Assembly: GCA_015478895.1 (NCBI GenBank) | Contig: JADMKK010000002.1 | Span: forward strand, 1-47,871 | Direction of reading: 5' to 3' | Length of the DNA stretch: 47,871 nt | From: Comamonas sp. | Lineage (GTDB): Bacteria > Pseudomonadota > Gammaproteobacteria > Burkholderiales > Burkholderiaceae_C | Shown: one piece after another, positions 24,227-26,916 of the stretch | How the letters are laid out: each line of letters opens with the position of its first letter | How positions within the stretch are numbered: position 1 is the stretch's first letter | The notes under the pieces: generated by a model | What the model saw: the letters and a program-made list of their open reading frames with translations, nothing else | What the model was told of the DNA's origin: nothing | Databases searched by the model: none | Program-made: the position numbers and the translations under genes

Positions 24227-25339
24227 TTACTTCGCCAGCAGAATGCGCAACATGCGGCGCAGGGGTTCGGCTGCGCCCCACAGCAGCTGGTCACCGATCA
24301 CGAAGGCGGACAGGTATTCGCCGCCCATGTTCAGCTTGCGCACGCGGCCCACGGCTACTTCCAAGCCGCCGGTGGTGGCTGCGGGTGTCAATTCCTTGAC
24401 GGTTTCTGCACGGTCATTGGCCACGAACTTGACCCAATCGTTGCCGCCCTTGATCAGTGCTTCGATTTCTTCCAAAGGCAAATCCTTCTTCAGCTTTAAA
24501 GTCAAAGCCAAGGAGTGGCAGCGCATGGCGCCAATGCGCACGCACAGGCCATCCACGGGGATGGTGGCTTCGGTGCCGAGGATTTTGTTGACTTCGGCCT
24601 GGCCCTTCCATTCTTCCTTGGATTGGCCGTTGGGCAGTTGTGCATCGATCCAAGGGATCAGGCCGCCGGCCAAAGGTGCGCCGAAGAATTCGGTGGGTAC
24701 ATCGGTGCGGATGGTCTGGGCCACCTTGCGGTCAATGTCCAAAATGGCAGAAGCAGGCGTGGCCAGCTCGTCGGCCACGGCGGCGTGCACCACGCCCATG
24801 CCCTTGAGCAGTTCGCGCATGTGGTTGGCGCCGCCGCCCGAGGCCGCCTGGTAGGTCATGGAAGACACCCACTCCACCAGACCGGCCTTGAACAGACCGC
24901 CCAGGCCCATCAGCAAAATGGAGTTGGTGCAGTTGCCACCAATCCAGTTCTTGCCACCAGCAGCCAGCTTCTTTTTGATCAGATCGTCGTTGACGGGGTC
25001 GAGCACGATGACGGCGTCGTCTTCCATGCGCAAGGACGATGCAGCGTCAATCCAGTGGCCGTTCCAGCCCGCAGCGCGGATCTTGGGAAACACTTCCTTG
25101 GTGTAGTCGCCACCCTGGCAGGTGATGATGATGTCGCACTTGGACAGCTCGGCGATGTCGTTGGCGTCTTTGAGTGCGGTGTGCACCGTAGCCATCGCAG
25201 GGGCCTTGCCGCCGGCGTTGGAGGTGGAGAAGAACACGGGTTCAATCAGCGCGAAGTCACCTTCGGCTTGCATGCGGTCCATCAAAACGGAGCCGACCAT
25301 GCCGCGCCAGCCCACCAAACCTACCAATTGCTTACTCAT
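24227..25339 (-). CDS. asd: Aspartate-semialdehyde dehydrogenase
   Basis: Reduces aspartyl-4-phosphate to aspartate semialdehyde, the branch point for lysine/diaminopimelate, methionine, threonine and isoleucine. The 370-residue protein shows the NADPH loop [15 protein letters not shown], catalytic Cys137 in [34 protein letters not shown] and the late His in [16 protein letters not shown]. It belongs to the gammaproteobacterial-type Asd class. The ribosome-binding site is AAGGGCG (25348-25354). Upstream is a threonine-rich short reading frame and hairpins that could control it. The gene lies downstream of leuB, from which a terminator separates it. Confidence 0.97.
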
Positions 25340-25399
25340 TTTTGAAACGCCCTTGAAGAAATTGCGAAAACAGATGTGAAGTGCTCAATCTGGCTTTTC

Positions 25400-25444
25400 G
25401 GCCCGGCTCGTCTGGCCGGGAAAGGGCGCGCGACGAACCGGGCT
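25400..25444 (-). promoter_or_regulatory. Hairpins of the asd leader, candidate attenuator
   Basis: Minus-strand RNA: AGCCCGGUUCGUC (25444-25432) can pair with GACGAGCCGGGCC (25412-25400), a 13-bp stem with two G-U pairs. The same left arm, extended as GGUUCGUCGCGCGC (25439-25426), can instead pair with GCGCGCGACAACC (25481-25469), which lies at the Thr codons of the short reading frame. The loop contains CGCCCUU (25428-25422), complementary to the asd ribosome-binding site AAGGGCG. There is no U tract, so any control would more likely act on translation or through Rho. Confidence 0.45.
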
Positions 25445-25447
25445 GGG

Positions 25448-25543
25448 TCAGCCTTTAATCGTCGTCGTGGTTGTCGCGCGCACAGCCACACCTGCCAGCA
25501 AGGCAGTCTTCAGAGAAGTGGTGAGGGTGTGGGCGGCAAACAT
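25448..25543 (-). CDS. Candidate threonine-rich leader peptide of asd
   Basis: A 31-codon frame, MFAAHTLTTSLKTALLAGVA then VRATTTTTIKG, with nine threonines, five of them consecutive and followed by isoleucine. It ends about 108 bases before asd on the same strand. TACAAT (25553-25558) lies just upstream, which would place transcription start near the ATG, giving an almost leaderless message. Threonine/isoleucine-rich leaders are known for the enterobacterial thr operon; asd supplies the threonine branch, so the logic fits. No family match is recalled for this peptide, and the Thr run uses ACG-rich codons that could arise by chance in GC-rich DNA. Moderate to low certainty. Confidence 0.45.
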   Translation of the reverse strand: MFAAHTLTTSLKTALLAGVAVRATTTTTIKG

Positions 25544-25680
25544 AGGGGGTGGATTGTAGCTTAACTAATGCGGCTTTAGAGAATCTAATCTCCGTCCCGC
25601 CGTGGGGTTTACGTCTGGCATTGTGGCGGCAAATGCACGCCCCAGCACCTGAATTTTGCTTGGTCGCCGTTAGCGTTACC

Positions 25681-25720
25681 AAAAAAGCCGCATGGCACAG
25701 GGCTGCAGGCGGCTTTTGGA
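25681..25720 (-). terminator. Terminator of leuB
   Basis: AAAAGCCG (25683-25690) pairs with CGGCTTTT (25710-25717), with GC-rich inner pairing. On the minus strand the stem is followed by TTTTTT. It starts about ten bases after the leuB stop. Confidence 0.75.
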
Positions 25721-25728
25721 GTTGCAGG

Positions 25729-26916
<1,188 letters not shown>

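Follow-up and report, generated by a model that had tools for sequence, protein, structure and literature searches.

A conserved leader upstream of asd in Comamonas and its family is a likely ribosome-mediated attenuator with threonine, isoleucine, and lysine codons

In the window (the whole 47,871-nucleotide stretch of Comamonas sp. contig JADMKK010000002.1 analyzed here), a short frame rich in threonine codons ends close to asd, a gene needed for the synthesis of threonine, isoleucine, lysine, and methionine via aspartate semialdehyde. The locus raises the question of whether this frame is a regulatory leader and, if so, what it reads and how it would act on asd. The genes and leader features are as follows.

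24227..25339, minus strand: asd, the gene presumed to be controlled, encoding aspartate-semialdehyde dehydrogenase (370 aa; ATG at 25339)
25448..25543, minus strand: leader ORF of 31 codons plus TGA, MFAAHTLTTSLKTALLAGVAVRATTTTTIKG (ATG at 25543, TGA to 25448), conserved in relatives
25454..25474, minus strand: candidate sensor codons, Thr x5, Ile, Lys (ACA ACC ACG ACG ACG ATT AAA)
25553..25558, minus strand: -10 box TACAAT, located nine bases 5' of the ATG of the leader; TANAAT is conserved in free leaders
25679..25719, minus strand: terminator-like hairpin plus T6 in the leuB-leader gap (sequence; fold z score, -1.83)
25729..26805, minus strand: leuB, whose C-terminal tail bears the sensor codons in other genera of the family

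The Asd of the window shares 99% identity with that of Comamonas sp. NoAH 1. Upstream of asd lie leuC, leuD, and leuB, names that we presume from the translations. Between leuB and asd, the order is the terminator-like hairpin with T6, the TACAAT box, the leader frame, and 108 bases of RNA. An earlier, sequence-only reading of this DNA had described the 31-codon frame correctly: it contains nine Thr codons, five of them consecutive and followed by Ile-Lys-Gly, and its stop is 108 bases from the asd ATG.

The element is real, conserved, and family-wide; the frame and its Thr codons extend far beyond the locus at which they were first noticed. A BLAST search with 25560-25341 matched 128/299 genomes of the family, and most of the matches listed cover approximately query positions 93 to 159, which correspond to the Thr codons and the hairpin. 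A covariance model (R1) retrieved one match in the window's own genome, with no further element elsewhere in that genome at an E value of 1 (150 of 570 first-look candidates scored). Within the family, R1 matched 300 of 397 genomes, with one match each, representing 108 of 126 genera. The genomes matched in an order sample (10/300) and a class sample (2/184) all belong to the window's family. Because the large searches fully scored only 8 to 17 candidates per genome, weak relatives could be missed. When 20 unmatched genomes of the family were searched again, 5 gave weak matches (E values of 0.02 to 0.36) and 15 were empty at an E value of 1. The pattern is absent from the asd loci of named relatives outside the family, such as Herbaspirillum, Ralstonia, Janthinobacterium, and Gallionella. 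The element is also missing at asd in L016 and L031, both of which carry the title Comamonas; a different hairpin occurs there in L031.

For comparison, asd upstream regions were gathered from 80 named loci and from whole-genome matches. Of the resulting 210 loci (L002 to L211), some of which come from the same genome via two routes, 205 contain asd; 153 of these show the hairpin pattern, 151 have the stop motif as well, and the distinct elements number 142. Six of the 52 loci counted as lacking the element carry it nonetheless (L069, L074, L100, L148, L191, and L194), having escaped the pattern; they were recognized from their listed sequences or from a BLAST match together with the LeuB tail. 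One element (L198) has no recognizable Shine-Dalgarno (SD) sequence, leaving 141 elements and 113 free leaders in the SD and start counts. The 131 BLAST matches comprised 30 already among the loci, 100 that were fetched, and 1 (G184) that was left out. Weak second or lone BLAST matches (E values of 2e-4 to 8e-4) account for L207, L208, L209, and L211, with no asd in the fetched stretch. At L265 (genome G035), leuB and asd are 920 bases apart, the hairpin is missing just upstream of asd, where the sequence appears to be coding, and no asd lies within 500 bases around the element (L192); another gene thus seems to separate the element from asd.

Two forms of the element occur. Among the 142 elements, 28 read as the LeuB C terminus, and the remaining 114, not so read, are called free-standing (or free) here. 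In the fused class, the tail is an addition to a LeuB core that stops at the same point as other LeuB proteins; the LeuB of L074 aligns with chain 4iwh_A over residues 1 to 355 of 362. Examples of fused tails are AAITTTKTIKS and AAITGKTITKS and, with Met, AAITTMTKTIKS. The fused form accounts for 59 of 65 loci examined, most of which belong to genera that score lower with the model. In a LeuB phylogeny with 117 rows (65 fused, 44 free, and 8 outside), the best tree needs nine changes between forms, of which well-supported branches force just one. Some free elements, for example, those at L084, L088, and L107, precede asd with no leuB match in the approximately 1,500 bases fetched upstream; because such elements exist, the element follows asd and not leuB. 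One leuB-asd stretch (L012, titled Chitinophaga pinensis) groups with Malikia on the LeuB tree, and thus its bin is probably mislabeled or mixed.

The codons ahead of the stop are strongly restricted. At codons -8 to -2 of the 142 elements, Thr, Ile, and Lys make up 952 of 994 residues, and their share of the last nine codons is 0.80 in frame, compared with 0.012 and 0.109 when the two alternative frames are read. Pre-stop readings of the distinct elements include KTTTIKG, ITKKTITG, and TTTIKTKITTG. In a divergent clade of fused loci, the same three residues supply 360/392 positions over codons -8 to -2, and Met supplies 10 more. The regulatory codons of the leader, initially described as Thr rich, are therefore kept in relatives, but they are codons for Thr, Ile, and Lys and not for Thr alone; a Thr-only sensor was rejected because Ile is present in 141/142 elements and Lys in 140/142. 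The sensor likely reads Thr, Ile, and Lys, all of which are end products whose synthesis passes through Asd. Like known attenuators, the element thus has a small ORF in which the regulatory codons specify products of the pathway to which the controlled gene belongs.

The Thr/Ile/Lys bias might also arise as a by-product of RNA constraint, namely, A at the first codon position and pairing of arm 2 (see below), in a simple translational element without amino acid sensing. Most first codon positions ahead of the stop are at least 90% A, synonymous choice tracks arm 2, and codons 2 to 22 of free-standing leaders display no clear third-position excess and no clear coding signature, all of which would be compatible with such a constraint. 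Set against this, Asn, Ser, and Arg, which likewise have codons starting with A, account for only 5/994 residues (1, 4, and 0, respectively), an ATG in frame stands beside a -10-like box in 110/113 leaders, and the codons move with the frame onto LeuB. Constraint on the RNA as the sole cause is thus very improbable. A SecM-like arrest peptide, in which the peptide sequence and not tRNA charging stalls the ribosome, is likewise highly unlikely: although the C terminus is conserved and a free leader, with a modal length of 33 codons, could fill much of the exit tunnel, T, I, and K interchange at codons -8 to -2, where an arrest peptide needs fixed residues, and the residues preceding the sensor codons differ between free leaders and LeuB tails.

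Two further observations concern the composition of the frame. Ile in the sensor codons is mostly ATT (133/213) and Lys is AAA in 129/252 cases (141 elements), unlike the asd genes at the same loci, in which ATC and AAG dominate. The N terminus of free leaders (codons 1 to 22) is alike across genera (MFAARPF..LN..), which may reflect constraint on the RNA or on leaderless initiation.

A loose -10-like hexamer is found just 5' of the in-frame ATG in 110/113 free leaders and is TACAAT, TAGAAT, or TAAAAT in 100 of them. Because a strict TANAAT box sits 6 to 10 bases before the ATG in 106/113, across leader lengths of 29 to 38 codons, the sequences suggest that free-standing leaders are probably leaderless, with the transcript beginning at the ATG or within a few bases of it. 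Among all 7,850 ATGs in the fetched loci, 118 have a TANAAT box at such spacing, leaders included. The sequence-only reading presupposed a transcript that does not start downstream of 25448; judging by the -10 box of the window, transcription likely starts at the ATG of the leader and hence 5' of that position, but a consensus scan of 25200-25800 found no full sigma-70 promoter and no -35 match. In free-standing leaders generally, the box is preceded by a conserved caTcCgc, and the consensus of 105 sequences shows no clear -35 element.

The RNA from the sensor codons to the asd ribosome-binding site contains the following segments.

25469..25481, minus strand: arm 1, GCGCGCGACAACC, which pairs with 25426-25439 (P(1:2) of 0.71 without a ribosome)
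25441..25453, minus strand: hairpin A (GGCUG / CAGCC), which spans the stop codon (fold and comparison)
25432..25443, minus strand: arm 2, GCCCGGUUCGUC (fold and comparison)
25422..25428, minus strand: anti-Shine-Dalgarno CGCCCUU in the loop of hairpin 2:3 (permutation test and fold)
25415..25420, minus strand: arm 2' (CCCGGC), an alternative partner for arm 3 (fold and comparison)
25401..25412, minus strand: arm 3, GACGAGCCGGGC (fold and comparison)
25365..25400, minus strand: hairpin C (CGAAAA..CAGAU / AUCUG..UUUUCG), from the fold; its sequence varies between relatives
25348..25354, minus strand: asd Shine-Dalgarno region, AAGGGCG, complementary to the loop

Arm 2 is complementary to arms 1 and 3, and arm 3 is complementary to arms 2 and 2'. 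By prediction and comparison, mutually exclusive RNA structures thus lie beside the sensor codons, as in known attenuators. The first of two competing hairpins originally proposed, in which 25481-25469 (GCGCGCGACAACC) pairs with 25439-25426 (GGTTCGTCGCGCGC), exists but covers just the first two codons of the five-Thr run (25474-25460). The second is present but longer than proposed, joining 25443-25432 to 25412-25401 in 12 bp, including one G-U pair. Its loop (CGCCCTT, 25428-25422) is, as claimed, complementary to AAGGGCG (25354-25348) in the asd ribosome-binding region. Predicted folding energies are -76.3 kcal/mol for RNA 25546-25330 (z score of -2.84 versus shuffles) and -44.5 kcal/mol for RNA 25448-25322 (z score of -3.48 versus shuffles). 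An Rfam search of 25200-25800 gave a single hit, WLE3 on the opposite strand, at 14.5 bits versus a gathering score of 50 (E value of 3.9); no known riboswitch aptamer or T-box family was matched in this stretch.

With the same sensor, the output could be premature transcription termination, either intrinsic (at hairpin C or 2':3) or by Rho on the C-rich stretch after the leader stop. The leader of the enterobacterial thr operon (thrL), which is rich in Thr and Ile codons, regulates by transcription attenuation. In the asd element, the stretch 25441-25414 is C-rich, and a run of at least four T's lies between hairpin B and the SD in 80/141 elements (at least six in 18/141). Nevertheless, no element has five T's in eight bases after hairpin B (0/141), which rules out an intrinsic terminator at that point, and a scan of the window revealed no terminator between the leader and asd; the G+C-rich hairpin followed by a U tract that marks a thrL-type transcription attenuator is absent. 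Hairpin C would not be switched because it is compatible with both states, and the compensatory complementarity described below involves the ribosome-binding region. We therefore consider termination an unlikely output. The missing U tract had been recognized from the window alone, and the caution that this prompted, with translational control as one option, was well placed.

Conservation of the RNA was evaluated in an alignment (A1) of 64 of the 141 elements, picked for diversity and for a stop-to-start distance of <135. Stem 2:3 is paired in 95.9% of cells, hairpin A in 90.6%, 2':3 in 85.7%, and 1:2 in 77.3%; for the whole structure, 94.4% of cells are paired, versus 15 to 45% when the structure is slid. 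Stem 2:3 is almost invariant, with 1 of 10 pairs changed on both sides, and column shuffles match the observed count of doubly changed pairs in 116/500 cases for the whole structure. Covariation adds little because the stem is nearly invariant, and it did not provide proof of stem 2:3. On the covariation that the sequence-only reading asked for, the outcome is therefore mixed: the stem itself hardly varies, whereas the loop and the ribosome-binding region of asd clearly show compensatory complementarity. This loop-SD complementarity is -11.36 for native pairs and -11.00 for permuted pairs (standard deviation, 0.08; 0/2,000), in a permutation that ignores relatedness; shuffled loops score -7.85 against the SD. 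Native 1:2 pairing (mean, -8.16) exceeds that of synonymous-codon redraws (-6.06 to -6.88), with 0/200 redraws reaching the native value in each of three schemes, and is stronger in free (-8.93) than in fused (-5.03) leaders.

The divergent fused clade (clade S) was tested with 53 of its 59 loci, five having been skipped by the pattern and one being a duplicate. There, the 2:3 loop pairs with a segment before the asd start (-14.0 native versus -11.0 permuted; standard deviation, 0.34; 0/5,000, with relatedness ignored). For the 43 distinct loops, the values are -13.8 and -11.2, respectively (0/5,000, with relatedness again ignored). Exchanges between loop and segment include CCACAAACCC/GGGTTTGTGG, CACCAAACCC/GGGTTTGGTG, and CCTGGACCCC/GGGGTCCAGG. 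A locus's own segment is not always the best partner for its loop (median rank, 8 of 53). In single folds of LeuB-fused loci such as L029, L010, and L065, the start codon of asd is a further partner of arm 2. At such loci, visual inspection suggests that GCG or GUG upstream of the AUG tends to accompany GCGCCC or ACGCCC in the loop.

Taken together, the sequence comparison and the folding models suggest that the conserved asd leader is a ribosome-mediated attenuator that would raise asd translation when Thr, Ile, or Lys runs short; we put the probability of this reading at roughly two in three. The codons and complementarities come from comparison, and from them we infer stalling, the direction of the switch, and its output; the attenuation-type control first suggested for this locus is supported to that extent by comparison and folding. 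With charged tRNAs plentiful, the ribosome would reach the leader stop and cover lower arm 2. Arm 3 would then pair with 2', and the freed loop (CGCCC) would pair with the Shine-Dalgarno region, turning asd off. With charged tRNA(Thr), tRNA(Ile), or tRNA(Lys) in short supply, the ribosome would stall upstream and mask arm 1, which would allow hairpin 2:3 to form and keep the anti-Shine-Dalgarno in its loop, turning asd on. In the class to which the window belongs, the leader would probably be leaderless and transcribed from its own promoter.

The direction of the switch was modeled by setting a ribosome at given codons and folding the RNA downstream of it at equilibrium. For the window, an A site at -7, -5, or -3 gives P(2:3) of 1.00 and loop-SD pairing of 0.00, while the stop codon in the A site gives 0.00 and 1.00, respectively; the SD is unpaired at 0.40 when stalled versus 0.01 at the stop. 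Across free leaders, the SD is more open with the ribosome stalled at -5 than at the stop in 102/113 cases (means of 0.34 versus 0.15; by >0.1 in 61), a gain that is lost when lower arm 2 is shuffled (mean of 0.34 falling to 0.18). At the 28 fused loci, the SD stays closed in every state (open at 0.17 stalled versus 0.15 at the stop; more open in 21/28). Stalling in the divergent clade raises 2:3 in 52/53 loci and lowers the helix between the loop and the downstream segment in 44/53, but this helix remains at 0.79 when stalled. Opening of the ribosome-binding site by the ribosome at equilibrium was not seen in this clade (an increase in just 25/53). Equilibrium folding thus supports the modeled direction in the free class and does so weakly in the LeuB-fused class. 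Because the SD is not opened at equilibrium in the fused class and the divergent clade, any switch there would need to operate kinetically. A pseudoknot, a kind of structure outside the folding model, might still let the loop contact the SD while 2:3 is formed.

In the fused genera, the final leuB codons would serve as the sensor, with the signal read by ribosomes as they complete LeuB. We find it probable that these codons act as an amino acid-sensing leader peptide for asd, such that each finishing ribosome samples Thr, Ile, and Lys (in one clade also Met) at once, and that over evolution the sensor has shifted between the tail of an enzyme and an independent leaderless frame. This would be an unusual design, in which the coding tail of one enzyme doubles as the sensor for the next gene, and would explain the odd C-terminal tail of LeuB in these bacteria. 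Genera keeping either form would make the evolution of leader peptides directly testable by comparison.

The asd element is likely a variant ribosome-mediated attenuator in which one sensor reads several amino acids, the output is probably translational, and the sensor can also take the form of an enzyme tail. If so, it would represent family-wide control of a branch-point enzyme of the aspartate pathway outside enteric bacteria, with several end products read in one leader. It resembles thrL in its Thr/Ile-rich leader ORF, its alternative RNA structures, and its link to a gene of the aspartate family. Unlike with thrL, the gene is asd and not thrABC, Lys codons are added, there is no U-tract terminator, there is no Rfam match at 25200-25800, and the leader is likely leaderless or fused to LeuB. 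As in SecM-secA, the C-terminal end of an upstream protein would control translation of the next gene; SecM, however, is an arrest peptide that senses secretion, whereas the LeuB tail belongs to a metabolic enzyme and would respond to the charging of tRNAs.

Translational attenuators of the erm type, as generally understood and as partly described in PMC8274638, likewise have a leader ORF whose stalled ribosome frees an otherwise paired ribosome-binding site. The predicted signal here is amino acid shortage and not a drug, and the controlled gene is biosynthetic. According to the available portion of PMC7298713, the leader ORF of Sinorhizobium meliloti trpL starts at the 5' end of the transcript and precedes a biosynthetic gene. 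A leaderless leader frame alone is thus not new; trpL differs in its Trp codons and transcription terminator, and no enzyme-fused form is described in that portion. Attenuators of actinobacteria, in the part of PMC1262725 consulted, were also identified through comparison of the sequences preceding amino acid operons but concern Trp, Cys, and branched-chain genes; its conclusion reports no conserved RNA structures ahead of threonine, lysine, or methionine operons, and the term asd is absent from its text. Translational control by an SD-sequestering 5' untranslated region has been proposed for the Corynebacterium his operon (PMC3896937, consulted in part). Among the open-access matches listed, no title or opening of an abstract points to an asd leader in this family or to LeuB as a leader; most of the subscription literature, including the survey of attenuators in proteobacteria by Vitreschak et al. 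(FEMS Microbiol Lett, 2004), falls outside that scope.

Finally, GCTGGCCCTTGTTATT and AATAACACCAGGGCTAGC can pair to form a long hairpin that encloses an inner stem in the leuD-leuB gap of the window (26938-26800, minus strand); the predicted fold of this gap has an energy of -36.8 kcal/mol and a z score of -3.26.
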